This document shows positions 5,281-28,460 of a stretch of 64,000 nt of DNA, piece after piece. Origin of the DNA: Gammaproteobacteria bacterium. Its GTDB lineage: Bacteria > Pseudomonadota > Gammaproteobacteria > Burkholderiales > Rhodocyclaceae. A program made the position numbers and the translations under genes. Each line of letters starts with the position of its first letter. The first letter of the stretch is position 1. The DNA is taken from NCBI GenBank assembly GCA_018824085.1, contig JAHJHI010000022.1:62001-126000 (forward strand), in the 5' to 3' direction. Under the pieces are notes generated by a model that was given only the letters and a program-made list of their open reading frames with translations, did not search any database and had not been told where the DNA came from.

Positions 5281-6506
5281 AGTCAGCCTGGCTTCCGTCC
5301 GGCCGCGTCCTTGCACGCGTGCTGCGCAACGCGGTATGCCTGTCGTCGCTGCTGGTGCCGCTCGCGATCGGCTCCGGCCAGTCGGGCGACGCCGTGCGCT
5401 ATTCGGACAGCGGCCCGGAGCCCATGCTCGAACAGGTGTTCCGCCAGATCGGGCGCAACCGGCTTGACCTCGCGCTCGACCAGGTCGACGCGCTGCTGCA
5501 CATCTGGCCGAACTTCCGGCTCGCGCACCTGATACGCGGCGATCTGCTGCAGGCCCGTTCCAGCGCACTGACAACATTCGGCAACGTGCCGAATGCTCCG
5601 GCAGAGCGTCTGGCCGACCTGCGCGACGAAGCCATCGTGCGCATCCGTGCCTACCGCGACAAGCCGCCGCTCGATCGCGTGCCGCGCTATCTGTTGCAGT
5701 TGCCGGCCGACCAGCGCTACGCGGTCGTGGTGGACACCCGCCGCTCGCGCCTCTATCTGTACGAGAACGTCGACGGGCAGCCGCGCTTCGTCGCCGATTA
5801 CTACGTGTCGCACGGACGCCTCGGCAGCGAGAAGATGCGCGAGGGTGACAAGAAAACGCCACTGGGCGTCTATCAGGTAACGGGTTTCCTGCCACCGGAA
5901 CGCCTCACCGATTTCTACGGCGCGGGAGCGCTGCCGATCAACTACCCGAACGCGTGGGACCGGAAACAGGGTCGCAACGGTCACGGCATCTGGCTGCACG
6001 GCACGCCGCCCGACACCTTCTCGCGCCCGCCGCGCGCCTCCGACGGCTGCGTCGTGCTGGCCAATACGGATTTCCAGGCGCTGAACAGCCGCCTGCACGG
6101 TGCATCGGTACCTGTTGTCATCAGCGATTCGGTCGAGTGGCTGTCGCTCGACGACTGGCAGGCCGAACGCAGCGAATTCAGCCGCGAACTCGAACAGTGG
6201 CGGCGCGACTGGGAAAGCCGCGACGTCGATCGTTACCTGTCGCACTATTCGCCGCATTTCACGGCGGACGGCAAGGATTTCGCACTTTTCTCGCAGCAGA
6301 AACGCGCCGTCAACGCCTCGAAGAAGTGGATCAAGGTCGATGTGCGCAACCTCAGCACGCTGCGCAATCCGGGCGCCGATCCGCTGGTCGTCGTCACGTT
6401 CGAACAGGACTATCGCAGCGACACGCTCTCCAACGTGATGCGCAAACAGCAGTACTGGCGCAAGGAAGCCGGCCGCTGGCGCATCGTTTTTGAAGGCGCC
6501 GCCTGA
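5277..6506 (+). CDS. L,D-transpeptidase (YkuD) with C-terminal NTF2-like domain
   Basis: A 409-residue periplasmic enzyme. The YkuD catalytic domain covers about residues 148-283, with the signature histidine in LHG (about 241) and the catalytic cysteine in SDGCVVL (about 258). Such enzymes make 3-3 cross-links in peptidoglycan or attach proteins to it. The N-terminus carries a hydrophobic export signal. The C-terminal 105 residues form an NTF2-like domain resembling that of the preceding TPR protein. The start at 5277 gives the ATGA overlap with the upstream stop; earlier in-frame starts would lie inside that gene. Substrate specificity cannot be read from the sequence. Confidence 0.88.
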   Translation: MKSAWLPSGRVLARVLRNAVCLSSLLVPLAIGSGQSGDAVRYSDSGPEPMLEQVFRQIGRNRLDLALDQVDALLHIWPNFRLAHLIRGDLLQARSSALTTFGNVPNAPAERLADLRDEAIVRIRAYRDKPPLDRVPRYLLQLPADQRYAVVVDTRRSRLYLYENVDGQPRFVADYYVSHGRLGSEKMREGDKKTPLGVYQVTGFLPPERLTDFYGAGALPINYPNAWDRKQGRNGHGIWLHGTPPDTFSRPPRASDGCVVLANTDFQALNSRLHGASVPVVISDSVEWLSLDDWQAERSEFSRELEQWRRDWESRDVDRYLSHYSPHFTADGKDFALFSQQKRAVNASKKWIKVDVRNLSTLRNPGADPLVVVTFEQDYRSDTLSNVMRKQQYWRKEAGRWRIVFEGAA

Positions 6507-11485: not shown

Positions 11486-11509
11486 CATACGTGAATTCAG
11501 TCACGTATG
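11486..11509. promoter_or_regulatory. Perfect 9-bp inverted repeat before the diguanylate cyclase
   Basis: CATACGTGA and TCACGTATG flank ATTCAG. No T-tract follows, so an intrinsic terminator is unlikely. The symmetry fits a dimeric regulator, and the neighbouring LuxR-type regulator is an obvious candidate. The right arm contains an ATG in frame with the diguanylate cyclase, but the better start is 78 bases further on. Confidence 0.5.
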
Positions 11510-11584
11510 ACCACCCTCAAGGCCGACGCAATCCTGCCGTTGAAATGCTTCGTTCCGGACAGTCACCCAACTTTCGAACCAACC

Positions 11585-13336
11585 ATGCCCGACGCACAGC
11601 ATCCGCTCGAAATCGCTCGTGAGGCATTGCGGCGTCTGGCCATGCGCCACCTTCAGCCGACGCCGGAAAATTACCGGTCGCTCTATCACGAGATCGCCGG
11701 CACCAAACCCGACGACCTGTTCCCGGAACGCGCGCTGAAGCTGGTCTGCAGCACCCTCCCCCGCCTGAATCAGGGACAGATCGAATTCGCGCAGAGTCTG
11801 GAAAACGCCGTTGCCAGTCGCAGCTGGTCGGCGATCAGCGGTTCGCTTGTCGGCTTGCTGCGCGCGCAGGCGGCGCCGCAGCGCAAATGGAAGGCACTGC
11901 TGAAGGACATCTTCCGGCAGCTCGAGCGGCAGCACGCCACATTGCGCCCGACGCAGAAATTCCAGGCACTGCAGCAGATACTCGATTCGTCGAATGGCGA
12001 GCTCGATGCGTTGTACATCCGCCTGAGCGCGCTGGCCGACAAATGGGAGTCGGACTCCGACAGCCTCGACACCCCGAATGCGGTCGGCGTGGAAGCCGCG
12101 CCCATCCCGGTCGACAACAGCGACGCCGCGCTGCGCGAACTGTTTGCGCACACACTGGAAGGCGTCGTCGGCAGCCTGCTGATCACGGCGCCCGAACTGC
12201 GCGAGGAGGCCTCGCAACTCGGCCAGTTGCTGCGCGACGTGCGGGACATGAAGGGTGTCGACGACCTGGCGGCAAGGCTGCGCAACCTGATCTACCGCCT
12301 GAACTGGGTGGTTGACGACCAGGCGGAAATCCGTACCGGCCTGCTGTCGCTGCTCGACCTGCTGCTCAAGAACATCAGCGATCTCGTGCTCGACGACCGC
12401 TGGATGCGCGGACAGATCGACGCACTGCGAGCACTGTGCGACCACCCTATCAGCGCCCGCGAACTCGACGAAGTCGAACGCCGGCTGCGTGAAGTCATCG
12501 CGCGCCAGGGATCGCTGCGCGGCAATATCGACGACGCAAAGCACCAGATCAAGCTCATGCTCGCCGGCTTCGTCGAGCAACTCGGCAGTTTCAGTGACGC
12601 TGCATCCGGTTTCGGCGAAAAGATGGACGGCTACGCGCAGACCATCGCCGACGCCGACGACATCGCCTCGTTGCAGACGGTGATCTCGGACATCATCGGA
12701 ACCACGCGCGACATGCGCGACACCGCGGAGCGCTCGCGCACCGAGGTCGACAACATGCGCGACAAGGTCCGCGCGGCCGAGGCAGAAATCGAACGGCTCC
12801 AGCTTGAACTGGAACAGACCAGCGAGAAGATGCGGCACGACCCGCTGACCGGGGCACTCAACCGGAAAGGCCTTGAGGAGTCGTACGCGAAGGAGGTTTC
12901 CCGGGCGGCACGAAGGCATTCGCAGCTATGTCTCGCCGTGCTCGACATCGACAACTTCAAGCGGCTCAACGACACCTACGGCCACAGCACGGGTGACGAG
13001 GCGCTGCTGCATCTGGTGGCGACGGTCCGCGACTGCCTGCGGCCGCATGACACGCTGTCGCGCTTCGGCGGCGAAGAGTTCGTCATCCTGCTGCCGGAGA
13101 CGACGATCGATGATGCCGTGATCATCCTGCAGCGCCTGCAGCGTGAGCTGACCAAGCGCTACTTCCTGGCCAACAATGACAAGCTGCTGATCACCTTCAG
13201 CGCGGGCGTCACGATAGTCGAAACCGAAGAAGCACAGCGCTCGGCCATCGAGCGCGCCGACGTTGCCATGTATCAGGCCAAGGCCACCGGCAAGAATCGC
13301 GTCGTCGTTTCGTCCCAGCCGGCCCTCGCGTCCTGA
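11585..13336 (+). CDS. Diguanylate cyclase (GGDEF) with long N-terminal helical region
   Basis: Makes cyclic di-GMP from two GTP. The active site GGEEF is at about residues 496-500, and RPHD exactly five residues before it is a complete I-site, so product inhibition is expected. The first 400 residues are helical and poorly characterised, with a coiled coil just before the catalytic domain (about 390-425). I chose the ATG at 11585 because the family-like opening IAREALRRLAMRHLQPTPENY follows at once; an in-frame ATG at 11507 would add 26 residues. It lies between a two-component pair and the flagellin cluster, which suggests control of motility. Confidence 0.88.
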   Translation: MPDAQHPLEIAREALRRLAMRHLQPTPENYRSLYHEIAGTKPDDLFPERALKLVCSTLPRLNQGQIEFAQSLENAVASRSWSAISGSLVGLLRAQAAPQRKWKALLKDIFRQLERQHATLRPTQKFQALQQILDSSNGELDALYIRLSALADKWESDSDSLDTPNAVGVEAAPIPVDNSDAALRELFAHTLEGVVGSLLITAPELREEASQLGQLLRDVRDMKGVDDLAARLRNLIYRLNWVVDDQAEIRTGLLSLLDLLLKNISDLVLDDRWMRGQIDALRALCDHPISARELDEVERRLREVIARQGSLRGNIDDAKHQIKLMLAGFVEQLGSFSDAASGFGEKMDGYAQTIADADDIASLQTVISDIIGTTRDMRDTAERSRTEVDNMRDKVRAAEAEIERLQLELEQTSEKMRHDPLTGALNRKGLEESYAKEVSRAARRHSQLCLAVLDIDNFKRLNDTYGHSTGDEALLHLVATVRDCLRPHDTLSRFGGEEFVILLPETTIDDAVIILQRLQRELTKRYFLANNDKLLITFSAGVTIVETEEAQRSAIERADVAMYQAKATGKNRVVVSSQPALAS

Positions 13337-13702
13337 GCGACGCGACCGGCGGCCGCTGGCCGTCGCACGGCTCCGCGGACGCCCGGAATGCCATCCCGAT
13401 TACATTCATTCACAGTTGAAATGCCCGTCAGGCGGTCAATTGCGGCGGGTAACGCCCGGACCTTGCAGGCAAATGCAGGGGACACGACCACCCGTGGCAA
13501 ACGTGAACGATCGTCCAAGTGGCGGCGGCAAGCCATCTCCCCCCCTGTCTGCCTGAAAGCCAATACAACAAAGGCTTTCCATAGGGTGCCGCACTAAAGT
13601 TTCTGCTGTCATCTCCGTTACTTGAAACATCGGCGACATCAACAGCGGGGCATTTAACCCGGAGCGCCGTAACCACACTACTTCGTGACAGGAGAAACAA
13701 AA
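13337..13702. other. Intergenic region ahead of flagellin
   Basis: This 366-base gap separates the diguanylate cyclase from fliC. It holds the sigma-28-like promoter described separately and the 5' leader of fliC. A GC-rich imperfect hairpin just after 13336 has no T-tract. No open frame here looks like a gene and no riboswitch was recognised. Confidence 0.6.
13595..13621 (+). promoter_or_regulatory. Sigma-28 (FliA) promoter of fliC
   Basis: TAAA at 13595-13598 and TCCGTTAC at 13614-13621 are separated by exactly 15 bases, matching the TAAA-N15-GCCGATAA pattern at all four -35 bases and five of eight -10 bases. It lies about 80 bases before the fliC start, as expected for a late flagellar gene. 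Confidence 0.75.
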
Positions 13703-14893
13703 ATGCCGCAAATCATCAACACCAACGTTGCCTCGCTCACCGCCCAGCGCAACCTCAACATGTCGCAGTCTTCGCTTGCGACTTCCCTGCAGCGCCTCTC
13801 TTCGGGCCTGCGTATCAACAGCGCACGTGACGACGCCGCCGGCCTCGCGATTTCGCAGCGCATGAACGCCCAGGTCAAGAGCCTGAACCAGGCTGCACGC
13901 AACGCCAGCGACGGCATCTCGATGATCCAGACGGCGGAAGGCGGCATGGCGCAGATCCAGGACATGCTGGTACGCATGAAGGAACTGGCCACCCAGGGTG
14001 CCAACTCGACGCTGGCCGACAACGAGCGCGCGTTCATCTCGGATGAACTGACGCAACTGCGCGACGAAATCAACAACATCTCGACGCGTACCAAGTTCAA
14101 CGGTCAGCAACTGCTCAACGGTTCCTTCGGCAAGGCGCTCGACGCCACCTCGACCGTCCAGGTCGGTAGCAACCTGGCCACGACGGCAGAAGCCGCGGTG
14201 ACCAAGGTCGACATTTCGGGCGCCGCTGCCGGCACGACCTTCACGTTCTCGAACACGGCGGGCGTGCTGACCCTCAGCGACGGCACGAATTCGCAGGCGA
14301 TCGATCTGACCGGTGTCACCGTCGCAGCCGGCGGTTCATACGAACTGAACTACAGCGAACTCGGCGTGAAGGTGTCGGTCAGTGCCGCTGCGAGCAAGGC
14401 CGGCACGGACATCGCGACCGACCTCGATGCGGGCACTGTCATCACGACCGCCGCCACCGGCGCCGAAATCCAGGTCGGTGCCGACAACGCTGCCGACAAC
14501 CGCCTGACGCTGACCTTCGGCAACACGCAGATCAACGGCGCCAACTCGGACGGCCGCATGGTCCAGCTCGACACCGACATCACCACCTTCGATGGCGCAA
14601 CGACGGCTGCCAATTCGCAGGCTCTGCTGACCTCGGTCGAAGACGCACTGACCTACGTCAGTGAGCAGCGTGCAGCACTGGGTGCCCAGCAGAACCGCCT
14701 GGACTACACGGTGGCCAACCTGCAGACGCAGTCGGAGAACATTTCCGCATCGAAGAGCCGCATCACCGATGCCGACTTCGCAGCTGAAACCGCCAACCTG
14801 ACCCGCGCGCAGATCCTGCAGCAGGCCGGTACCGCGATGCTGGCGCAAGCCAACTCGCTGCCGCAGAACGTGCTCAGCCTGCTCCGCGGCTAA
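13703..14893 (+). CDS. fliC: Flagellin
   Basis: The main filament subunit, exported through the flagellar secretion system. The 396-residue protein has the conserved N-terminal D0/D1 helices (MPQIINTNVASLTAQ, then LSSGLRINSARDDAAG near residues 33-48) and the matching C-terminal helices ending QANSLPQNVLSLLRG. The middle third is Ala/Thr/Gly-rich and variable, the surface-exposed domain. The ATG at 13703 was chosen over one at 13685 because MPQIINTN is the family start and AGGAGAAAC precedes it. A strong hairpin follows the stop, and flaG, fliD, fliS and fliT come next. Confidence 0.97.
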   Translation: MPQIINTNVASLTAQRNLNMSQSSLATSLQRLSSGLRINSARDDAAGLAISQRMNAQVKSLNQAARNASDGISMIQTAEGGMAQIQDMLVRMKELATQGANSTLADNERAFISDELTQLRDEINNISTRTKFNGQQLLNGSFGKALDATSTVQVGSNLATTAEAAVTKVDISGAAAGTTFTFSNTAGVLTLSDGTNSQAIDLTGVTVAAGGSYELNYSELGVKVSVSAAASKAGTDIATDLDAGTVITTAATGAEIQVGADNAADNRLTLTFGNTQINGANSDGRMVQLDTDITTFDGATTAANSQALLTSVEDALTYVSEQRAALGAQQNRLDYTVANLQTQSENISASKSRITDADFAAETANLTRAQILQQAGTAMLAQANSLPQNVLSLLRG

Positions 14894-14918
14894 GCATCGC
14901 AGATCGCATCACCCGATC

Positions 14919-14948
14919 CATCGGGGCACGGTCCTCCGTGCCCCGATG
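14919..14948 (+). terminator. Strong hairpin after fliC
   Basis: A 13-base perfect stem (CATCGGGGCACGG and CCGTGCCCCGATG) closes on a TCCT loop 25 bases after the fliC stop. No run of T follows, so it is more likely a partial attenuator or an mRNA-protecting 3' structure than a complete terminator. Either would leave fliC mRNA in excess over flaG-fliD. Confidence 0.6.
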
Positions 14949-14967
14949 ATCCACAAGGGAGATTGTC

Positions 14968-15318
14968 ATGGCCATCCAGCCAGTCCCGGGTATTCCCCCC
15001 ACGCATGCCCCGACCGTCAATCCGACCGCCGGGGTACGCCACGTTGCGTCCGCCGAGCCGGCCGCCAACACAAGCAGCCCGCAAGCGCTCAGCAACGAAC
15101 AGGTCGAACAGACCGTGGACGAAATCCGTCGCCATATCGATCCGGTGGACCAGAACTTGCAATTCTCGATCGACAAGGACACCGGGAAGACCATCGTGAA
15201 ACTGATCGACACCTCGACGAAGGAAGTACTGCGCCAGATCCCGACAGAGGAACTGGTCGCCATCGCACGCGCGCTCGGCAAGGGCCAGAGCGGCGGATTC
15301 ATCGAACGCAAGGCCTGA
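14968..15318 (+). CDS. flaG: FlaG family flagellar protein
   Basis: A 116-residue protein with a variable Pro/Ala-rich N-terminus and the FlaG core at its C-terminus (residues about 60-112: LQFSIDKDTGKTIVKLIDTS and RQIPTEELVAIA). FlaG is linked to filament length in other bacteria, but its mechanism is not settled. It sits between fliC and fliD, the standard place, with GGGAGATTGTC before its ATG and 13 bases to fliD. Confidence 0.92.
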   Translation: MAIQPVPGIPPTHAPTVNPTAGVRHVASAEPAANTSSPQALSNEQVEQTVDEIRRHIDPVDQNLQFSIDKDTGKTIVKLIDTSTKEVLRQIPTEELVAIARALGKGQSGGFIERKA

Positions 15319-15331
15319 GGAGACCCGCATC

Positions 15332-16747
15332 ATGGCTCTCGCCGCTACCGGAATAGGCTCCAACCTCGACGTCACGTCCATCATCAGCCAGTTGATGACG
15401 CTGGAGCAACGTCCGCTGACGCTGCTCGCGCAGAAGCAGGCCACCATGCAGTCAAAGATTTCCGCCTTCGGGGCCGTTCAAGGCGCGCTGTCGTCGATAC
15501 AGACGGCTGCCAAGGCACTGGACAAGGCGGAAATCTTTGCCTCCAACAAGGCAACGGTTGCCGACACCGGGGTGGCAACAGTTGCCGCCTCGACGACGGC
15601 CACCCCCGGCAACTACACGATCGAAGTCAGCAGCCTCGCGCGCGCCCAGGTCACCGCCTCGGACGCCTTCGCGGGCAGCACCTCCACCGTCGGCAGCGGC
15701 ACGCTGACCATCGAACTGGGCAGCTACAGCGGCGGGGCATTCACGACGAACCCGGACAAGACGCCGGTCACCATCAATATCGACAGCAGCGCCGCAACGC
15801 TGGCCGACGTACGCGATGCCATCAACAGCGCCGACGCGGGAGTCACCGCCTCGCTCATCAACGACGGCACCGGCAGCCGCCTCGTCATGACGTCGAAAGA
15901 TGGCGGCACGGCGAACACCGTGCGCATCACCGCCGCGGACGACGACGGCAACAACACCGACAACGCAGGTCTGTCCAGACTCATTTATGACGCCTCGACC
16001 GGCGGCGTGTCGAACATGGCGGAGAAGGTCACGGCAGCCGATGCCAATCTCACCGTCAATGGCATTGCCGTGACGTCCAGCGGCAACACGCTCACCGACA
16101 TGATCGAAGGCGTCACGCTGACGCTGAAGAAGACCAACGTCGGCAGCCCGACCACGATCACCGTCGCAAGCGACCAGAGCGGCGCGAAAACGGCCATCGA
16201 AAAACTGGTCAAGACCTACAACGACGCGGTGTCGACGATCAAGAACCAGTCCTCGTACAACACGACCACGAAGACCGCCGCCGCGCTCAACGGCGAAAGC
16301 GTTGTGCAGAACATGCGCTCGCGCCTGTCCTCCGTCTTTACCGGCGAGATCGCACCGGGCGTCACGTTTAGCAGCATCGGCGTGGCGGTGCAGAAGGACG
16401 GCACCCTCGCCATCGATTCCGACAAGCTCACTGCAGCACTGGAGAGCGGCGCGGCAAAGAACCTGTTCCTCGGCAGCACCGGCGTGACCGGGCTGGCGTC
16501 GAAGATCGATTCGGCCATCGAGGCGATGATCGAAGACGACGGCCTGATCTCCAACCGGACCGACGGGCTCGAAACGTCCATGAAGTATCTGGATCGCCAG
16601 AAAGACCAGCTGAACCTGCGCCTTGAGCAGATCGAGGCCCGCTACCGCCGGCAATTCACGGCACTCGACACGCTGATGAGCAGCATGAACACCACGAGCA
16701 GCTATCTCGCACAACAACTCGCCAACCTGCCGACCTATTCAAGCTGA
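15332..16747 (+). CDS. fliD: Flagellar filament cap protein
   Basis: FliD (HAP2) forms the cap at the filament tip and promotes flagellin folding. The 471-residue protein has the N-terminal FliD domain (LDVTSIISQLMTLEQRPL near residues 12-30), a long Thr/Ala-rich middle, and the C-terminal FliD domain ending with a helical stretch (about 400-460, DRQKDQLNLRLEQIEARYRR) that contacts the filament. Length is typical. It follows flaG by 13 bases and precedes fliS by 36. Confidence 0.95.
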   Translation: MALAATGIGSNLDVTSIISQLMTLEQRPLTLLAQKQATMQSKISAFGAVQGALSSIQTAAKALDKAEIFASNKATVADTGVATVAASTTATPGNYTIEVSSLARAQVTASDAFAGSTSTVGSGTLTIELGSYSGGAFTTNPDKTPVTINIDSSAATLADVRDAINSADAGVTASLINDGTGSRLVMTSKDGGTANTVRITAADDDGNNTDNAGLSRLIYDASTGGVSNMAEKVTAADANLTVNGIAVTSSGNTLTDMIEGVTLTLKKTNVGSPTTITVASDQSGAKTAIEKLVKTYNDAVSTIKNQSSYNTTTKTAAALNGESVVQNMRSRLSSVFTGEIAPGVTFSSIGVAVQKDGTLAIDSDKLTAALESGAAKNLFLGSTGVTGLASKIDSAIEAMIEDDGLISNRTDGLETSMKYLDRQKDQLNLRLEQIEARYRRQFTALDTLMSSMNTTSSYLAQQLANLPTYSS

Positions 16748-16783
16748 CGGCAAACGCCATTTTCCACGGGAACAGGACACGAC

Positions 16784-17197
16784 ATGTTTGCATCTCTTTC
16801 GAATCCGCGCATGGCCTACAACCAGGTCGGTGTGGAAGCACGTGTGGCCGGGGCCGACCCGCATCAGCTCATCCTGATGCTGTTCGACGGCGCCATGCTG
16901 TCGGTGTCGACAGCCAGCCACCAGATGGAGCGCAACGACACGGCAGGCAAGGGGCAGTCCATCTCGCGCGCGATCGACATCATCGGCAACGGGCTCAAGG
17001 TCAGCCTCGATCTGGACGCCGGCGGCGAACTGGCGCAGCGCCTTTACGCACTGTACGACTACATGTGCGCACGCCTGCTGCATGCCACGTCGCAGAATGA
17101 TCGTGCCGCACTGGAAGAAGTCGGCCACCTGCTGGGCGAGCTGAAGGGCGCCTGGGAGGAAATCCGGCAAAAAATGGTCCAGGGCGCGCCGATGTAG
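16784..17197 (+). CDS. fliS: Flagellin export chaperone
   Basis: FliS binds newly made flagellin in the cytoplasm and keeps it unpolymerised until export. The 137-residue helical protein opens with YNQVGVEARVAGADPHQLILMLFDGA, the family signature, and has the conserved KGQSISRAIDII helix. It lies directly after fliD. The assignment is firm. Confidence 0.94.
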   Translation: MFASLSNPRMAYNQVGVEARVAGADPHQLILMLFDGAMLSVSTASHQMERNDTAGKGQSISRAIDIIGNGLKVSLDLDAGGELAQRLYALYDYMCARLLHATSQNDRAALEEVGHLLGELKGAWEEIRQKMVQGAPM

Positions 17198-17310
17198 GCA
17201 AAAGGCGGAAATTGAACGGTAAAAGCCGCCTACATGCACGACTCGGACACGCATCTCATCTGTACCCTTCCCTCATACAACCAGCCTCACCAGAACGACG
17301 GCCCGCCCAC

Positions 17311-17610
17311 ATGAACTCTCTGCCTCTGCTTGAAGACATGCGCCAGCTTTCCAGCCATATGGTCGACGCCGCACGCGCGAATGACTGGGACCGTCTGGTA
17401 TCGCTGGAACAGAACGTGTCGGCGCTGCGCAGTCGCATCGCCGACAACGACGAACCGGCCGCAACCCCGGCGGAACGGGCGCGCAAGATCGAATTGATGA
17501 GGCAGATCCTTGCCGACGACGCCGAAGTACGCCGCCACGTCGAGCCCTGGATGCAGCAGGTCAAGGTATTCCTCGGCAAGATGCCGGCGGGCAAGGCCGG
17601 CAATACCTGA
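17311..17610 (+). CDS. fliT: FliT-like flagellar chaperone
   Basis: A 99-residue helical protein in the fliT position after fliS. In enterics FliT chaperones FliD and regulates the master activator; that role here is inference from position and size. The start at 17311 (MNSLPLLEDMRQLS) is preferred because the upstream extension is low-quality sequence spanning the fliS-fliT gap. The body contains the helical pattern DWDRLVSLEQNVSALRSRI, which fits the family. Sequence conservation in FliT is weak, so confidence is moderate. Confidence 0.75.
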   Translation: MNSLPLLEDMRQLSSHMVDAARANDWDRLVSLEQNVSALRSRIADNDEPAATPAERARKIELMRQILADDAEVRRHVEPWMQQVKVFLGKMPAGKAGNT

Positions 17611-17619
17611 GGGCGCGTC

Positions 17620-18786
17620 ATGAACAACCTGCTGCCGGGCCTCGCACAACGTCTGGCGGCGCTGACTCGCGAATCGATACAGGTATCGCCACCGGTCAGC
17701 CCGGTCGGCGATCAGCTGCCGGAGTTCCAGCCGGGCGAACGCTACAGCGCGCGCATCCTTCAGAACCTCGCGGACGGGCGCACCCGCGCACAGGTCGCAG
17801 GGCAGACCGTGACGCTGCAATTGCCGCAAGGCGCGCGCGAAGGCAGCACCGTCAATCTCACCCACGTCGGACGCAGTGCCCAGACGCTGATCGCCACCCT
17901 CGCCAACGATGACGCGCCAGCGAGGGCGCCGGCCGACAACGTCCGCCTCAGTGCATCCGCACGTACCATCAGCACGCTGCTCGACGGCCCGGAACCGCCT
18001 CCCGCCCGACTGAACGCCGGTCAGGCGCTGATCGATCCGACGCTGCTGCGCGCCAGTGCCAACATGACGGACACCGCCGCCACGCCGCTGCTCGCCGGAC
18101 GGCTCGCACAGGCCATCGGCCAGAGCGGCCTGTTCTACGAATCGCATCAGGCGCAGTGGGTCAGCGGCGAGCGGACGATAGAGTCCACCTCCGCCGAACC
18201 GCAACGCGCCTTCGATCCGCCGGGCACGAAAGCCGCCACCGCACCCGATCCCCGTACCGCCTTGCTGCAGACAGCGCGCGACACCGACGACCCCGCTGCG
18301 GCACGCGGCGACCTGCCCGTGCGCGAGCGTGCCGAGACCGTCAAAGGAGACACCCCGCCGGGCGAATTGCGGCCGCTGGTGCAGAACCAGTTGCTCGGCC
18401 TGTCGCAGCACGCCCTCACCTGGGAAGGCCTCGCCTGGCCCGGGCAGATGATGAAGATCGAAATAGACGACCCGCGCGACGACCCGCACGGCGAACAGCA
18501 CGACGCGGATCCTGCCGACGACGTCCCGTGGACCTCCCGCCTGCGCATCGTGCTGCCCGGCCTTGGCGACATCGAAACCTCGCTGACGCTTCGCAGGTCG
18601 CAGGGCCTCGCGCTGACCTTCACCACCGACGGCGACGCGCGGGCACGGCTCGGCGCCGCACTGGAAGAACTGCAGACCCGCATCAGCGACGCAGGCCTGC
18701 GCCTGGGCGCCGTCACCTTCACCGAACCGGCGCCGGCCGCCGAACACCGCGACAGCGCAAATGACGAAGCGGTCACCGCGCCATGA
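17620..18786 (+). CDS. FliK-like flagellar hook-length control protein
   Basis: A 388-residue protein with a disordered, acidic and Pro/Ala-rich middle and a C-terminal domain (about residues 280-375) resembling the FliK hook-length domain (LRIVLPGLGDIETSLTLR, then LEELQTRISDAGLRLG). A canonical fliK lies in the fliF operon at 37.6 kb, so this is a second member. It precedes an FlhB C-terminal-domain-like gene, overlapping it by four bases. FliK and FlhB act together in the export switch, so the pairing suggests a modified or auxiliary switch. It is often annotated simply as a flagellar hook-length control protein. Confidence 0.78.
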   Translation: MNNLLPGLAQRLAALTRESIQVSPPVSPVGDQLPEFQPGERYSARILQNLADGRTRAQVAGQTVTLQLPQGAREGSTVNLTHVGRSAQTLIATLANDDAPARAPADNVRLSASARTISTLLDGPEPPPARLNAGQALIDPTLLRASANMTDTAATPLLAGRLAQAIGQSGLFYESHQAQWVSGERTIESTSAEPQRAFDPPGTKAATAPDPRTALLQTARDTDDPAAARGDLPVRERAETVKGDTPPGELRPLVQNQLLGLSQHALTWEGLAWPGQMMKIEIDDPRDDPHGEQHDADPADDVPWTSRLRIVLPGLGDIETSLTLRRSQGLALTFTTDGDARARLGAALEELQTRISDAGLRLGAVTFTEPAPAAEHRDSANDEAVTAP

Positions 18787-19088
18787 GCACTTCCACGCGC
18801 GCGCAAGCAGTGGCGCTGGCCTACGGCACGGGCGACGCTGCGCCACGCGTCGTCGCCAAGGGGCGTGGCCTGATGGCGGACGAGATCATCCGGCGCGCGC
18901 GCGAAGCGGGCGTGTTCGTGCACGAATCCCGCGAAATGGTTGCGCTTCTGATGGGTCTCGATCTTGACCAGCGCATTCCGTCCGAACTGTACATTGCGGT
19001 AGCCGAACTGCTGGCCTGGATCTATCGTGTCGAAAAAGGGCTGACCGACATCCCGATGCCGGCGCCACGCAACGCACCGTCAGAGTGA
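18783..19088 (+). CDS. Stand-alone FlhB C-terminal domain homologue
   Basis: A 101-residue soluble protein matching the cytoplasmic FlhB/YscU domain: AVALAYGTGDAAPRVVAKGRG, then IIRRAREAGVFVHES and IPSELYIAVAELLAWIYR. Full FlhB has four membrane segments and self-cleaves at NPTH; this protein has neither, so it resembles the FhlB/YlqH type known to substitute partly for the FlhB C-terminus. Its start overlaps the FliK-like stop by ATGA, implying coupled synthesis. Partner and function are inferred. Confidence 0.85.
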   Translation: MSTSTRAQAVALAYGTGDAAPRVVAKGRGLMADEIIRRAREAGVFVHESREMVALLMGLDLDQRIPSELYIAVAELLAWIYRVEKGLTDIPMPAPRNAPSE

Positions 19089-19148
19089 ATTTTCATGACC
19101 AGGCCGTTTCCCGATTTTGCTGAAACGGCCTTTCACAAGGAATTGCCC

Positions 19149-19907
19149 ATGACCGAGAACATCCGGTTTGATCTGCTGGACGCTGACGATTTCGCACGCT
19201 ATGTCCTGGAAGGTCAGACCGACATCGTGTTTTATCTGCGCGCAATAAAGGACCGCAAGGCCAATGTGTCGGTCTATGCCGGGCGCGCGCGCGATTCGTT
19301 CCCGAGCGCCGTTCTTGAAATAGACGACGGCCGCAACACGATGCTGATGGACCTGCCGGGCGATGAAGCGCAGATGGCGCAGGCAGGCAAGGCATCGCCT
19401 CTGGTTTTCCTGACCTCGCTGGAACGGGTGAAGGTGCAGTTCATGGTGGCTGGCGGCACGATAACGACGCATGACGGCCGCCCTGCACTGGCGTGCGCGC
19501 TGCCGACGCGCATGCTCAGGCTGCAGCGGCGCGACTACTACCGCCTCATCCTGCCGCCGCATCCTCCGCTGCGCTGCCTCATCCCGGACCCGGACAAGGA
19601 CGGTCGCATGATAGAAGCCGATATCGTCGACATTTCCGGCGGCGGTCTCGCCGTCGTCGCACCGCCGGACGGTCTGAGCCTGTCCGTCGACAGCGTGATC
19701 GACCAGTGCCAGATCACGCTGCCCGAGCTCGGCACCATCACGGCGACGCTGCAGGTGCGCAACATGTTCCGGGTCACCGAGCGCTCCGGCCCCCAGTTGC
19801 GCGCCGGCTGCCAGTTCGTCGGTCTGCCGGGCGCGGCCGATGCGCTGATACAGCGCTACATCCTGCGCATGGAGCGCGAATGCAACCCGCGTCATGACGA
19901 CTACTGA
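19149..19907 (+). CDS. ycgR: YcgR-type flagellar brake (PilZ) protein
   Basis: A 252-residue c-di-GMP receptor that slows the flagellar motor. The N-terminal YcgR domain (about residues 1-115) is followed by PilZ, with the c-di-GMP-binding motif RDYYR (RxxxR) near residue 122 and DISGGG near 160. The ATG at 19149 follows AAGGAATTGCCC; an in-frame ATG at 19095 lies only six bases after the previous stop and lacks a ribosome site. Location at the end of the late flagellar cluster, with a diguanylate cyclase upstream, fits a motility brake. Confidence 0.9.
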   Translation: MTENIRFDLLDADDFARYVLEGQTDIVFYLRAIKDRKANVSVYAGRARDSFPSAVLEIDDGRNTMLMDLPGDEAQMAQAGKASPLVFLTSLERVKVQFMVAGGTITTHDGRPALACALPTRMLRLQRRDYYRLILPPHPPLRCLIPDPDKDGRMIEADIVDISGGGLAVVAPPDGLSLSVDSVIDQCQITLPELGTITATLQVRNMFRVTERSGPQLRAGCQFVGLPGAADALIQRYILRMERECNPRHDDY

Positions 19908-20121
19908 AGTCTCCCGGCATCAACGGAGAACCGTACGGACCGGCATTCCGAATGCGTTTTCCGGTGGGAAGCCCCGCTTGCCGGAGAGGCCATCGCGCTC
20001 ACTGCCGAGACACGTCGTGCCGGCCGGGTAAGGACGGTATAGTCGCTCCGGAGCGAGGCGACGCCGCCATGCCCCGAAGGAACACGGCCAACGTCAACGC
20101 CATTGATGAGGGGATCGCGGC

Positions 20122-21324
20122 ATGAACGACATCCAGACCTTTCTCCCCCACGGTTACTGCTTTTCCTGGCAACAGGACCTGCTGTTGCTGCATGTCGTGG
20201 CGGACTCGCTGATCGCGCTCGCCTACTTCACCATTCCGGTGACGCTGTGGCGCTTCGTGCGCCGCCGCACGGACCTGCGCTTCCGTTCCGTATTCGTCAT
20301 GTTCGGTGTCTTCATCCTTGCGTGCGGGCTGACCCACGTGCTCGACGTCTGGACGCTCTGGCATCCGGACTTCTGGCTGGACGGCTGGGTACGCGCCTTC
20401 ACGGCCGTGGTGTCGCTGGCGACTGCGGTGCTGCTCTGGCGGCTCGTCCCGCTGGCGCTGGCGTTGCCCAGTCCGGATTCGCTGCGCCAGGCCAATGACG
20501 AACTGCGTGCCGAGATCGAGCGGCGCACGCACTACGAGAACGAACTGCGCATCGCCAACTCGCGCATGAAAGCGCAGATCGACGAACTTGAGTCGCTGTC
20601 CTACGCCATATCGCACGACGTACGGGGCCCGCTTCGTCATATCGACGGTTTCGCCAAGGCGCTGGCGGATTCGCACCCGGCGCCGCATGGCCACCCGGCG
20701 CAACGCTACATCGAGCGCATCCGTTCATCGGTACATGTCTTGAGCGACATCGTGGAAGGGCTGCTCGCCTTCTCGCGCGCGAGCCGCACCGAAATGCGGC
20801 GCGAGCGCTGCGCGAGCAACGCCATCGTCGCCGACGTGCTGCGCGAACTCGTGCCCGAAACCGAAAGTCGTCCGATGGACATCGAAGTCGGTCCGCTGCC
20901 CGAACTCGAAGCAGATCCCACCCTGCTCTATCAGGTGTTCTACAACCTCATTTCCAACGCGGTGAAATACACCCGGGGGCGTGACCCCGCGCGCATACGC
21001 ATCGACTGTACGGGCAGCGACGGTCGCGAAACCACGTTCCGCATCCGTGACAACGGTGCCGGCTTCGACATGAAGTACGCAGGCAAGCTGTTCGGCGTGT
21101 TCCAGCGCCTGCACCATGCCAGCGAATTCGAAGGCACCGGCATCGGCCTTGCCAACGTCAGGCGCATCGTCGAGCGCCACGGCGGGCGTATCTGGGCGGA
21201 AGGCACGGTCGACGCCGGAGCGACGTTCTTTTTCAGTATCCCGGTCGCCCCACCTGTGGACGACAATGCATCCAGCCTGAATTCCAACTCCCGCGGAGCA
21301 TCCGATGTCCCTGCATTTGCGTGA
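20122..21324 (+). CDS. Membrane histidine kinase with ethylene-receptor-like sensor domain
   Basis: A 400-residue kinase. The first 110 residues form three hydrophobic helices that match the ethylene-binding domain of plant ETR1 and cyanobacterial relatives. The seven residues I recall as essential in ETR1 (D25, Y32, I35, P36, I62, C65, H69) are all present at a constant offset of three: D28, Y35, I38, P39, I65, C68 and H72. C68 and H72 would be the copper ligands. A short coiled coil leads to HisKA (H165 in ISHDVRGPL) and HATPase (FYNLISNAVKYT, DNGAGF, GTGIGLA). The gene overlaps the next one, a single-domain response regulator, by 20 bases. Ethylene binding is inference. Confidence 0.85.
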   Translation: MNDIQTFLPHGYCFSWQQDLLLLHVVADSLIALAYFTIPVTLWRFVRRRTDLRFRSVFVMFGVFILACGLTHVLDVWTLWHPDFWLDGWVRAFTAVVSLATAVLLWRLVPLALALPSPDSLRQANDELRAEIERRTHYENELRIANSRMKAQIDELESLSYAISHDVRGPLRHIDGFAKALADSHPAPHGHPAQRYIERIRSSVHVLSDIVEGLLAFSRASRTEMRRERCASNAIVADVLRELVPETESRPMDIEVGPLPELEADPTLLYQVFYNLISNAVKYTRGRDPARIRIDCTGSDGRETTFRIRDNGAGFDMKYAGKLFGVFQRLHHASEFEGTGIGLANVRRIVERHGGRIWAEGTVDAGATFFFSIPVAPPVDDNASSLNSNSRGASDVPAFA

Positions 21325-21748
21325 AATCCTGGTTGTCGACGACAACGACAACGATGTCGAACTGCTGATGCTCGGGCTCGGGGAGCTCAAGCTCGCAAAC
21401 CGGATCGCCGTGGCCCGCGACGGTGTCGAAGGACTGGATTATCTGTACCGCCGCGGCCGTTACGCCGACCGCTCGGGCGAGCATCCGCTCTTCATACTGC
21501 TCGACCTGAACATGCCGCGCATGGGCGGCATCGACATGCTGGCCGAGATGCGTCGCGACGACACGCTGCACGCGCTGCCGGTCGTCGTCATGACATCTTC
21601 ACGGGAAGATCCGGACCTGCGTCGCTGCTACGACCTCGGCATCAACGCCTACGTCGTCAAACCGGTGGATTGCGAGCAGTTCTCGCGCACCGCGACCAAT
21701 CTGGGCATCTTCTGGGCGCTGATCAACGCGGCGCCGCCGGACCACTGA
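21305..21748 (+). CDS. Single-domain response regulator (Rcp1 type)
   Basis: A 147-residue receiver with no output domain. D67 in LLDLNMP is the phospho-acceptor, with DDND at 12-15 and a K in VVKPVD near the end. The insert DYLYRRGRYADRSGEHP is typical of the Rcp1 group that partners phytochrome-like kinases. It starts inside the end of the ethylene-receptor-like kinase, so the two are almost certainly a pair. The output must pass to another protein, which is not identifiable here. Confidence 0.9.
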   Translation: MSLHLREILVVDDNDNDVELLMLGLGELKLANRIAVARDGVEGLDYLYRRGRYADRSGEHPLFILLDLNMPRMGGIDMLAEMRRDDTLHALPVVVMTSSREDPDLRRCYDLGINAYVVKPVDCEQFSRTATNLGIFWALINAAPPDH

Positions 21749-23530: not shown

Positions 23531-23671
23531 CCGCGGCCGTCCGCCGGGCGGCATGCGTGAAATTTTCGTGACGGCTGCATCCAGTCGGCGTGCCGGTGTG
23601 TAGGGAAAGCGACGGGTCACTGAGCGGTGACGCGTCGTCCATCCCGCCCCTTGCATCCAGGAGAGTCAGAC

Positions 23672-24559
23672 ATGTCCGGAAAAACCATCCTCGCCGCCGC
23701 ATCGACCCTTGCCATGACTTTCGCGCCTGCCGCCCAGGCCGCCGACTTCGTCGGCCTGACCACCGGCAACCAGATCGGCACGTTCAACAGCGGCAACACG
23801 GCGTCCGCAAGCTTCATGTCCGTCACCGGTCTGGGCAGCGGCGAACGCCTGCTCGGCATCGACCTGCGCCCGAGTGACAACATGATCTACGGCGTCAGCA
23901 GCCTGAGCCGCCTCTACACGCTCGACGCCGCCACGGGCGCGGCGACCTTCGTGTCGGCGCTCGATGTGCCTGTGGTCAATCCGTCGCTCGCCTACGGCAT
24001 CGACTTCAATCCGGTGGCCGATTTCGCCGGCGGCTCGTCGCTGCGCTTCGTCAGCCAGACCGGCAACAACTACGCCATCAACGCCGGCACCGGCGTCGTC
24101 GGCAACGCGCCCGGCGTGATTCCGGCCGGCTTCACCGCGGTCGCCTACACCCGCTCCGATCCGTCGCAATCCAGCGGCCCGGCATCGACGTCGCTGTACT
24201 ACATCGACACCGCCACCGACACGCTGCATTTCGCCGGTGGCGCCTTCAATGCACCCGTCATCAGCATGGTCGGCACACTCGGCGTGTCCGGCAACGTCAT
24301 CGGCGCCAACGGCTTCGACATCGATGCATCCGGCATGGGGTGGGCCGCGCTGACGCTGGACAACGGCGACAGCGGCCTGTACTCGATCAATCTGGGCACC
24401 GGCCTGGCCACCTTCAATGGCGCGCTCTCGGCCAATCTGCGCGGACTGACGGCAGCACCCTTCATGGCACCGGTACCGGAGCCGGAAACCTGGGGCATGC
24501 TGCTCGCCGGACTGGGCCTGGTCGGCATGATTGCGCGCCGCCGCATCAGGCACGCCTGA
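23672..24559 (+). CDS. DUF4394 PEP-CTERM sorted exported protein
   Basis: A 295-residue secreted protein with a signal peptide (ending PAAQAA near residue 24), a DUF4394-like beta-propeller region (LLGIDLRPSDNMIYGVSS, then YGIDFNPVAD) and a C-terminal PEP-CTERM tail: VPEPETWGMLL, a hydrophobic helix and the basic end IARRRIRHA. Such tails are recognised by exosortase, which is not in this window. The start at 23672 follows AGGAGAGTCAGAC. It is a single gene between the SDR gene and the convergent RNase. Confidence 0.88.
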   Translation: MSGKTILAAASTLAMTFAPAAQAADFVGLTTGNQIGTFNSGNTASASFMSVTGLGSGERLLGIDLRPSDNMIYGVSSLSRLYTLDAATGAATFVSALDVPVVNPSLAYGIDFNPVADFAGGSSLRFVSQTGNNYAINAGTGVVGNAPGVIPAGFTAVAYTRSDPSQSSGPASTSLYYIDTATDTLHFAGGAFNAPVISMVGTLGVSGNVIGANGFDIDASGMGWAALTLDNGDSGLYSINLGTGLATFNGALSANLRGLTAAPFMAPVPEPETWGMLLAGLGLVGMIARRRIRHA

Positions 24560-26032: not shown

Positions 26033-26971
26033 TCAGGGCAGGCGCCGCCTGTGCCTGAACAGCACGCCGAGGCCGGCCAGCAGCATCGCCCAGGCCTGCG
26101 GCTCGGGCACCGCCGTCACCTGCCAGCCGATGTCCGCGAAGCCCGCATAGTCCAGCGCCGTGGGCAACTGGCGCTCACCGAACGGCGTGCTCGGGTCCAT
26201 CATCGTCTCCTGCGGCACGCCGTCGCGCACGCTGTACGTACCTTCCGCCCAGTGGTCGAGATAGCGGTCGAGCGGCACCGCGCCGCCCCAGGCGGCCATG
26301 GCGTGCTCACCGACGAACAGCCCGCTGTCGGGATCGATGTTCGCGAACCACGAGTCGGCTTCGCCGAAGCCGAGGATGTGGCCGATCTCGTGGGTGGCGG
26401 TGGTCAGGAAGTCCGGTCGGGTACCGTTCAGGCCGGCTTCGTCGGCGCCGAAATACCAGTCGTTCGATGCGTTGAACCAGATATAGCCACCCCAGGTTGC
26501 GTAATCCACTGCCTGTGTGCCTTGGGTGCCGGTCTGGCCCCGCGTCGTCACGGCGTCGACGAAGGCGGCGTCACCGCTCGCCTGCAGGCTGTGGCCAGTG
26601 CCGGCGAAGCCGAGTACGCCGGGCGCGGTGGGAGATCCTCCGACATAGATGCGCAGCGTATCCGCCGCGATGTCGACGTTCTGCAGCGTGACGGCCGGCC
26701 CGCCCAGACTCGGATGCATGAAGGACACCGACCACTGGTCACCGGCGCCCGGCGCTATCGCCGTCAGCGCATCGGTGAATCCGCCGTAGAACGTCGCGGC
26801 CAGATCAAGCAGCGCGCGCCGCTCGGTCATCGGCGCCCCGGTGGCAAGGTCGGTGAAGAAACCGTGCGTGTCGTAGCTGTAGTCGAATTCGATCGACAGC
26901 GCGGACGCTGACGACGCACTTGCAGCGAACGCGAGCGCAAGCGCCGCACGCAGGCATGACGGGCGGTTCAT
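26033..26971 (-). CDS. PEP-CTERM metalloprotease with HExxHxxGF site
   Basis: A 312-residue exported protein with signal peptide (to about residue 26, ALSIEF following) and a zinc-protease motif HEIGHILGFGEAD. The PEP-CTERM tail VPEPQAWAMLLAG with basic end RHRRRLP closes it. I recall a similar family named NF038122 metalloprotease. The third zinc ligand is not the usual metzincin His, so Glu or Asp may serve. It is the last of three minus-strand PEP-CTERM genes joined by ATGA overlaps; its start codon overlaps the stop of the preceding gene. Confidence 0.85.
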   Translation of the reverse strand: MNRPSCLRAALALAFAASASSASALSIEFDYSYDTHGFFTDLATGAPMTERRALLDLAATFYGGFTDALTAIAPGAGDQWSVSFMHPSLGGPAVTLQNVDIAADTLRIYVGGSPTAPGVLGFAGTGHSLQASGDAAFVDAVTTRGQTGTQGTQAVDYATWGGYIWFNASNDWYFGADEAGLNGTRPDFLTTATHEIGHILGFGEADSWFANIDPDSGLFVGEHAMAAWGGAVPLDRYLDHWAEGTYSVRDGVPQETMMDPSTPFGERQLPTALDYAGFADIGWQVTAVPEPQAWAMLLAGLGVLFRHRRRLP

Positions 26972-27723
26972 TTGCGCGCCCTCCTGAAGCGCCGGTTGCC
27001 GGCGAGCATCAGCGCGCCGGCCGTCCACATCAGCGCCGAGGCCGGCTCCGGCACGGCACTCAGCGGCGTGACCGAACCGCTACCGCTGCCATAGACCGCC
27101 TGCAGCGCAGCGACGCTTTCCGCGTCGAGCGGAAACAGCGGTCCGTCATACGTCAGCTCGGCAAATGCGGCGTCCGGAAACGGATCGGCATCGACGTAGT
27201 GCCCCATGCCCAGCGCGTGTCCGAGTTCGTGCTGCGCAACCGCGTAGACCCACAGTGGCGTCCAGCCGGCGCCGGATCGCGTCGCGCTGAACACGACGTC
27301 ACCGGCCAGCCCGCTGGTGAGCGAATACGGGAAGTACGCATAGGCGTTGGCGCCATCGATATGCGCAACCTGGCCGACGCGGATGTCGGCCAGCCCCGCC
27401 GGATCGTAGTCGCCGCTCTCGGGCAGCGGCCCGGCGTCGACCATCTCGACGAAATGGATCGGCAGGACCGCCGCGTAATCCCACAGCGCATGTTCGAAAG
27501 CGCTGCGCAGCAACGACGCCGGCAGTGACGCACCGGTACTGTCGCGCAGGCTGCCATCGAGCAGATTGCTGAAGCTGTAGCTCAACTCGATGGCGCTGCC
27601 CGGCCCGTCCGCTTGCGGCCAGGCGGCATGCATCGGGAAGTATCCGGCGGCGGCGGGCAGGGCCAGCGCTGCCGACGACAGCGCCATGGCGCCGAGCAGC
27701 GTCCGCTTCGTGCCGCGCTTCAT
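26968..27723 (-). CDS. PEP-CTERM exported metzincin-type protease
   Basis: A 251-residue protein with signal peptide (about 1-30), a complete metzincin zinc motif HELGHALGMGH and a PEP-CTERM-like tail (VPEPASALMWTAG, basic end RRFRRARK). It resembles matrixin-like peptidases in fold motif. The ATG at 27723 overlaps the previous gene's stop (ATGA), with GGAG about 10 bases ahead. Middle gene of the three-gene operon. Substrates may be other surface or biofilm matrix proteins, which is inference from the sorting signal. Confidence 0.84.
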   Translation of the reverse strand: MKRGTKRTLLGAMALSSAALALPAAAGYFPMHAAWPQADGPGSAIELSYSFSNLLDGSLRDSTGASLPASLLRSAFEHALWDYAAVLPIHFVEMVDAGPLPESGDYDPAGLADIRVGQVAHIDGANAYAYFPYSLTSGLAGDVVFSATRSGAGWTPLWVYAVAQHELGHALGMGHYVDADPFPDAAFAELTYDGPLFPLDAESVAALQAVYGSGSGSVTPLSAVPEPASALMWTAGALMLAGNRRFRRARK

Positions 27724-28460
27724 CGCGCGGCTCCGCGCCGCCGGGCGCTGAGCCCGGCAACGCCAAGCCCGGCGGCAAGCAGCGCCCACGCGGACGGTTC
27801 GGGGACCGGACTGATCGTCAGCCGCACCGCACCCGGCGCTTCGCTCGAATTCAGGAAGCCGTGCAGGAAGTCATTGCCGGAGCTGTCGTTGAGGCCGGTA
27901 AGCGCCAGCGCATGGATGGCGTTGCTGCCGCTGATCCAGTCATTGACCAGTGCCGACACGTCGAATTCGACTTCACCGAAGCCGCTGATGGCGGTGCGCG
28001 CCGCGGCATCGGCGGCCAGTACATGCGTGGAGAAATAGGTCTGCCAGCTCATGCTGCCATCCGGCTGCGTATCGTCAATGATGCTGGCGAGCGGATCGGC
28101 CGTGAGCCCGTGGGCTGACACGACGAAGGGCTGCCCGGCGCTCGCGTTCGCGCCGAAGCCACCGTCCACGCTGGTCATCGTGAGGCGCGCGGTGACCGGC
28201 CCGGTGAACAGGCTGAAGTCATGGTCGAACACGAGGTAGATCGTCTCGGCGCCGCTGCTGCCGAAGGGCTCCGGCGTCGACACCCGCAGTACCGGACGGT
28301 TGTCGCCGGCGTAGCCGCGCACCGTATTGGCGCCGATGAAAAAAGATGACGTCATTACGTCCTCACTGGCGTCCAGCGTCACGGCGGCGTGCAGCGGTGC
28401 GGAGAGGGAAAGCAGTGCCCAGGCGGCAAGCGTGGCCGCGTTCTTTGGATATGTATTCAT
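27720..28460 (-). CDS. PEP-CTERM protein with DNRLRE/CBM96-like domain
   Basis: A 246-residue exported protein with signal peptide MNTYPKNAATLAAWALLSLS, a beta-sandwich of the DNRLRE type (DNRPVLRVS near residue 47; CBM96-like carbohydrate-binding modules share this) and the PEP-CTERM tail VPEPSAWALLAAG with basic end SARRRGAAR. First gene of the three-gene operon, so its start at 28460 was set at the codon giving the signal peptide; an upstream open frame lacks one. A long leader separates it from a promoter with a Fur-like box. Confidence 0.82.
   Translation of the reverse strand: MNTYPKNAATLAAWALLSLSAPLHAAVTLDASEDVMTSSFFIGANTVRGYAGDNRPVLRVSTPEPFGSSGAETIYLVFDHDFSLFTGPVTARLTMTSVDGGFGANASAGQPFVVSAHGLTADPLASIIDDTQPDGSMSWQTYFSTHVLAADAAARTAISGFGEVEFDVSALVNDWISGSNAIHALALTGLNDSSGNDFLHGFLNSSEAPGAVRLTISPVPEPSAWALLAAGLGVAGLSARRRGAAR

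Follow-up and report, generated by a model that had tools for sequence, protein, structure and literature searches.

The ethylene receptor AzoEtr1 of Azospirillum brasilense, reported in 2025, is according to its authors the first to be described in a proteobacterium (PMC11819568). Its first 130 residues bind ethylene in yeast, the protein sits at one cell pole, and its gene overlaps that of a single-domain regulator. Both ethylene and disruption of AzoEtr1 lower biofilm formation in A. brasilense, ethylene also lowered c-di-GMP, and aerotaxis is unchanged by loss of the receptor (PMC11819568). SynEtr1 of Synechocystis signals to Slr1213, and Slr1213 in turn switches on transcription of the small RNA csiR1; output from the plant receptor AtETR1 is mainly independent of its histidine kinase (PMC11819568). 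The copper site of ETR1 has been placed at Asp25, Cys65 and His69 (PMC12643061), and a 2026 review counts communication between the membrane domain and the cytoplasmic domains among the open questions (PMC13012798). A literature search returned no second proven proteobacterial ethylene receptor, and no publication on an ethylene receptor in Methyloversatilis.

The stretch of DNA analyzed here (the window, 64,000 nucleotides of a Methyloversatilis genome) carries a receptor and regulator pair that is real and probably functional: an ethylene receptor pair of a known kind. The receptor gene occupies positions 20122–21324 of the forward strand, where the listing of open reading frames and Pfam define a sensor histidine kinase of 400 amino acids with an ATG start. 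Its layout is simple: a three-helix sensor is followed by a helical linker, a HisKA domain (residues 159–220) and an HATPase_c domain (residues 265–376). The sensor matches the ethylene-binding-type transmembrane domain ETR1_N (PF25487) over residues 20–115 (20179–20466, forward strand) with E = 2e-39 and 134.2 bits against a cut-off of 27, far beyond chance. Neither a PAS nor a GAF domain was found by Pfam between sensor and kinase module at E ≤ 0.001. The genome contains a single copy of the sensor.

The seven residues named in the original prediction as needed for ethylene binding in ETR1 are all found in the translation: Asp28, Tyr35, Ile38, Pro39, Ile65, Cys68 and His72 align with Asp25, Tyr32, Ile35, Pro36, Ile62, Cys65 and His69 of AtETR1. 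Of these seven, Asp25, Cys65 and His69 are given by number in published work (PMC12643061, PMC11819568). A gapless, constant offset of three had been claimed, and all seven do lie at +3; the offset ends after His72, however, because helices 2 and 3 are joined by a loop three residues shorter than that of ETR1, which places Arg91 on ETR1 Lys91. On the forward strand, the Asp28 codon (GAC, 20203–20205) reads AAC, that is Asn, in six sister genomes; the codons of Cys68 (TGC, 20323–20325) and His72 (CAC, 20335–20337) stand at the sites of two ETR1 copper ligands (PMC12643061); and Arg91 (CGC, 20392–20394), in helix 3, is Lys in ETR1 and in most other sensors. The predicted phosphoacceptor is His165 (CAC, 20614–20616, forward strand), which lies in SHDVRGPL within the HisKA match and is nearly invariant in the alignment. 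By relative entropy the most conserved position of the sensor is Cys13 (20158–20160), part of an N-terminal HGxCxxW stretch; it narrowly outranks the copper Cys and corresponds to ETR1 Cys6 in the alignment.

An AlphaFold2 monomer model was built from 28 sequences, six of them with the sensor (mean pLDDT 82.7, pTM 0.59). It predicts three long N-terminal helices (13–48, 52–80 and 84–113) and a continuous helix, 118–184, running into the phosphoacceptor, with block confidence of 73–86 over residues 21–120. Each sensor helix is conserved on one side (permutation p = 0.0002, 0.006 and 0.0024). The Cys/His pair had been expected to face the membrane core: the helix faces answer part of this, since each of the seven residues deviates by at most 51 degrees from the conserved side of its own helix (Arg91, in helix 3, lies at 0 degrees). 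Among the best 50 of 571 Foldseek matches in the PDB none is titled an ethylene-binding domain; the titles describe histidine kinases, kinase chimeras or complexes that include a histidine kinase. Similarly, none of the 55 matches from a sequence search of solved structures falls on the sensor part, save for stretches starting at residue 97 or later.

The regulator gene (21305–21748, forward strand) encodes 147 amino acids from an ATG start and shares 20 nt (21305–21324) with the kinase gene; aligned kinase and regulator stretches overlap by this same length in 11/11 genus relatives. The product consists of one receiver domain alone, and the receiver pattern predicts Asp67 (21503–21505, forward strand) as its phosphoacceptor. 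We call it Rcp1-type by score, since RcpA, RphyB, RcpB and Rcp1 entries match at 70–91 bits and entries named ‘chemotaxis protein CheY’ at no more than 46 bits; 5ic5 (139 bits) and 3heb (82 bits), which carry the depositor labels ‘(CheY)’ or ‘CheY’, also match. Pfam bears out an ethylene-receptor-type kinase with a one-domain regulator (ETR1_N, HisKA, HATPase_c and receiver domain). The overlapping Rcp1-type regulator had further been read as a parallel to cyanobacteria. Its type, by score, and the overlap stand, but a cyanobacterial arrangement for an ethylene receptor was rejected because SynEtr1 uses Slr1213. At the AzoEtr1 locus (L149) a receiver reading frame overlaps the kinase gene, and, given this overlap and the use of Slr1213 by SynEtr1, the overlapping one-domain regulator follows the Azospirillum plan.

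How widespread are such sensors? The pair is present in 12 of 13 Methyloversatilis genomes, with ETR1_N above the Pfam cut-off, and in a sample of relatives ETR1_N was found in two of 24 genomes from other genera of the family. Above cut-off it occurs in 25/399 genomes of the order, 12/369 of the class, 28/398 of the phylum and 27/385 of the class to which genome G454 belongs, samples that overlap and each of which includes the genome of the window or a known positive. Each of these searches gave 0/14 among control genomes. In a plasmid collection 18 of 72,556 records match the sensor, among them records from Azospirillum, cyanobacteria and Novosphingobium. A betaproteobacterial copy is therefore a minority trait rather than a surprise. 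Plants and cyanobacteria, given in the original prediction as the known homes of these receptors, are not the sole ones, as AzoEtr1 (PMC11819568) and the 25 genomes of the order make clear.

The four full-length relatives found in a collection of named genomes (L019–L022), 69–72% identical, come from three Methyloversatilis MAGs and one MAG labelled Betaproteobacteria. ETR1_N kinases from Novosphingobium (L155 and L221) and Pseudanabaena (L151) lie on plasmids typed as conjugative, and ethylene-receptor genes may therefore be mobile. One of these, the ES2-1 copy (L155), is likewise a short kinase with an overlapping regulator.

The gene next upstream of the kinase encodes a YcgR-type flagellar c-di-GMP brake (PilZN and PilZ; 19095–19907, forward strand, Pfam and synteny), preceded on the same strand by genes for a protein comprising only the C-terminal domain of FlhB (18783–19088, Pfam) and the hook-length control protein FliK (17620–18786, Pfam). 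Further upstream (13685–17610, forward strand) lie genes for flagellin, a FlaG-like protein, FliD, FliS and FliT; flagellin, FliD and FliT are assigned by Pfam, and the FlaG-like and FliS genes are putative, named from gene order. This run is conserved among genus relatives. The pair follows fliK-flhB′-ycgR in 11 of the 12 carriers, window included, and in the window, as in 10 of 11 carrying relatives, it sits between ycgR and a gene of metallo-beta-lactamase fold. In three carriers (G001, G004 and G010) a PEP-CTERM-like gene separates the pair from ycgR. The pair of G002 lies ∼133 kb from ycgR, which is there followed by the metallo-beta-lactamase-fold gene without the pair. Genome G005 has no ETR1_N match: it retains the flagellar run and the PEP-CTERM-like and metallo-beta-lactamase-fold genes, and lacks the pair. 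A tree of six flanking proteins places it beside G001, G004 and G010 with moderate support (83/81), and loss of the pair is therefore likelier than late gain.

A GGDEF diguanylate cyclase gene (11507–13336) lies ∼0.35 kb before the flagellin gene; with ycgR at the other end, genes for making and for reading c-di-GMP thus flank the same flagellar run. Control of the pair by sigma-54 or FliA was rejected, since no site resembling either pattern was found in the interval from ycgR to the kinase gene (19907 to 20122). Over the whole window the sigma-54 pattern is no commoner than chance (27 against 33 in shuffles), and the FliA pattern occurs 10 times against 4.5 in shuffles (3/100 shuffles reach this number), with none near the pair. 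Neither an intrinsic terminator nor a sigma-70 promoter was found between ycgR and the kinase gene.

Other features of the window deserve brief record. Three proteins (23627–24559, forward strand; 26033–27028 and 26968–27789, reverse strand) have C-terminal ends that resemble PEP-CTERM sorting signals, with VPEP followed by a hydrophobic stretch and an Arg-rich tail. A relative of the first of the three proteins lies close to the receptor pair in 9/11 genus stretches. At 4186–6506 two adjoining proteins share a Cds6_C NTF2-like C-terminal domain, joined in one to TPR repeats and in the other to an L,D-transpeptidase (YkuD) domain. A reading frame of 523 amino acids at 99–1670 has no Pfam match at E 0.001 and is a candidate gene.

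The identity of residue 91 bears on how binding might be coupled to output. Replacement of the copper-site Asp of ETR1 by Asn leaves a functional receptor with ∼100-fold lower affinity, and natural variants exist; the same Asp has been modelled to form a salt bridge with a conserved Lys (both from the 2026 review, PMC13012798), and the Azospirillum paper names the pair D25-K91 (PMC11819568). We compared the two sites across distinct ETR1_N sensors taken from the loci by an HMM of our own (E ≤ 1e-5), 12 of them from Methyloversatilis and 110 from elsewhere, after sensors with unknown residues and weaker matches were dropped, a set that omits some of the places listed by Pfam. All seven residues are kept in 68 of the 110 sensors from outside the genus. 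The Lys91 site is Arg in 12/12 genus members; outside the genus it is Lys in 90/110 and Arg in 7/110. Genus members divide evenly at the Asp25 site, six (window included) having Asp and six Asn. Both Cys68 and His72 are kept in 12/12, as are the Tyr, Ile, Pro and Ile of the list of seven.

Sensors with both Cys and His (98 others and 12 from the genus, coincidentally again 110) form a copper-intact set in which Asn or Ser at site 25 and Lys at site 91 exclude one another: Lys91 occurs in 0 of the 14 sensors whose site 25 is Asn or Ser and in 78 of the 90 with Asp25; in the remaining six rows site 25 is a gap or some other residue. One sensor, L215, does pair Asn with Lys, but it lacks the Cys/His pair and so lies outside the set. 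The idea of exclusion arose from the first 75 other sensors; among the 35 rows added afterwards the copper-intact cases of Asn or Ser are L214 and L224, and neither has Lys91. Across columns with few gaps, and with relatedness ignored, position 91 shows the strongest association with loss of Asp25 (Fisher p = 1.2e-10), followed by position 81 (1.2e-5). The association persists after single-linkage clustering at 60% identity (p = 8e-6, 49 clusters) and at 55% (p = 6e-4, 25 clusters). When both sites are masked, the sensor tree requires 7 changes to account for loss of Asp25 (bootstrap 5–95% range 6–7), of which well-supported branches force 3; this tree is built on few columns, its bootstrap is unsettled and the branch leading to L214 is very long. 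Asp-Arg and Asn-Arg relatives co-occur in the genus and in family f21; the f21 sensor L187 is Asn-Arg and has also lost the His. In L109, L027 and L224, Asn or Ser at the Asp25 site accompanies Asp at the Lys91 site, so that the acidic residue seems to have shifted onto helix 3.

The primary papers on the Asp25 change are Azhar 2023 and Aman 2025. In the literature covered by our text search, which extends to neither of them, and in excerpts of the 2026 review (PMC13012798), no earlier report of the exclusion was found. Read from alignments, the exclusion supports the modelled contact between Asp25 and Lys91 and is an independent line of evidence for it.

The direction of change can be followed within Methyloversatilis. 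The kinase tree unites the six Asn28 members in a single clade (97/95), which lies beside the Asp28 member G007 (85/85) and inside the Asp28 genus group (92/97); an unrooted tree of flanking genes groups the same six at 100/100. Asn28 is encoded by AAC in 6/6 and Asp28 by GAC in 6/6, one base apart. Given Arg91 in every genus member, Lys91 was most simply replaced before Asp28; this order is read for the genus, and not for f21 or for sensors that combine Asn or Ser at site 25 with Asp at site 91. Among Asp28 and Asn28 members alike, purifying selection acts on the sensor (median dN/dS 0.14 and 0.12, respectively), which argues against decay. We propose, as a possible history that falls somewhat short of a probable one, that the receptor was retuned in two steps: replacement of Lys91 by Arg freed Asp25, and in a nested clade Asp25 then gave way to Asn, with weaker or faster-releasing binding of ethylene and with signalling kept. 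As the exclusion extends to distantly related bacteria, Asp25 and Lys91 would then be a coupled pair linking binding to output, which bacteria adjust for sensitivity. Since Lys91 is Arg in the window sensor, its coupling may differ.

Methyloversatilis is a methylotrophic genus, aquatic as well as rhizospheric, with cultured members. One strain has been called a rhizobacterium (PMC10394338), and the genus is also mentioned in a paper about biofilms in drinking water (PMC11455961). A plant signal, as first suggested for this sensor, is accordingly one option among others. ACC deaminase was considered as a marker of plant association in the genus and set aside: 0/13 genomes have a match over the cut-off and 1/13 has a weak match far below it, in a search where controls also match below the cut-off in 6/14.

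A minimal ethylene receptor of the AzoEtr1 kind, dependent on copper, is, we think, likely the best explanation of these data, and the window receptor quite probably binds ethylene. The sensor might instead be tuned to another small olefin or gas (propylene, acetylene or CO) that a methylotroph meets in water or sediment, with ethylene as a cross-ligand. The habits of the genus, Arg91 and, in six genomes, Asn28, which alter the site, would fit such a sensor, but the window copy keeps all seven ETR1 binding residues and no member of the ETR1_N family is known to prefer another ligand; we consider it unlikely. Slightly less likely still is a sensor of copper or redox state, in which the Cys/His site reports its own loading with Cu(I) and there is no gaseous ligand; a copper sensor had been suggested in the original prediction. 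The window does retain all three residues of the ETR1 copper site (PMC12643061). Against this, the Tyr, Ile, Pro and Ile that fall outside the copper-site list are also invariant in the genus, and AzoEtr1, the closest characterized relative compared, binds ethylene (PMC11819568).

A third possibility is that the receptor is decaying or blind to any ligand and is kept for a kinase output that is independent of ligand. Loss of Asp28 in half of the genus members (6/12) and the one genome of 13 without the domain could be read in this way. The low dN/dS of the sensor (0.12–0.14) in both groups and the retention of Cys68 and His72 in every member speak against it, and we regard decay as very improbable.

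For the favored reading, a copper-dependent ethylene receptor, a mechanism can be sketched by analogy with described receptors. The three membrane helices would hold Cu(I) between Cys68 and His72, near Asp28; the signal from ethylene binding would pass along the continuous helical linker to the phosphorylation site at His165, and phosphate would move from there to Asp67 of the overlapping Rcp1-type regulator, which may act through protein-protein contact. Ethylene probably lowers kinase activity, as suggested by analogy with ETR1, SynEtr1 and AzoEtr1. Because of the flagellar and YcgR neighborhood, attachment and swimming are the probable candidates for output, although the flagellar position is one inherited arrangement and is therefore just weak evidence of function; that signalling reaches either process is a proposal we make tentatively. 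The locus adds to the known receptors a compact form, in which neither PAS nor GAF was found to separate sensor from kinase, beside flagellar genes. Furthermore, the orthologues of sister species, which differ at the Asp25 site on an Arg91 background, provide natural variants for testing the proposed Asp25–Lys91 switch.

Comparison with known systems places the pair closest to AzoEtr1 and AzoRR(Etr1) of A. brasilense Sp7: the AzoEtr1 sensor, also joined to a kinase, is 50% identical to that of the window over 119 columns and has all seven residues, and the two pairs share gene order and a small overlap. They differ in that AzoEtr1 has 525 amino acids and a PAS domain, whereas the window receptor has 400 and no PAS was found in it; in that AzoEtr1 has Lys (its K98) at the Lys91 site; and in that the upstream genes listed for AzoEtr1 (PMC11819568) are non-flagellar. 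SynEtr1 of Synechocystis PCC 6803 is likewise a bacterial ethylene receptor with a His kinase and phosphorelay, but it also senses light (PMC11819568); the likeness is drawn here from description rather than from sequence. The sensor of AtETR1 is 32% identical over 117 columns and has the same seven residues, with Lys91 in place of Arg91. AtETR1 also has a GAF domain and a receiver domain of its own (PMC12643061), neither of which was found in the window kinase. Rcp1, RcpA and RcpB, finally, are alike in sequence to the regulator, yet their partner is a phytochrome, whereas here it is a kinase of ethylene-receptor type.
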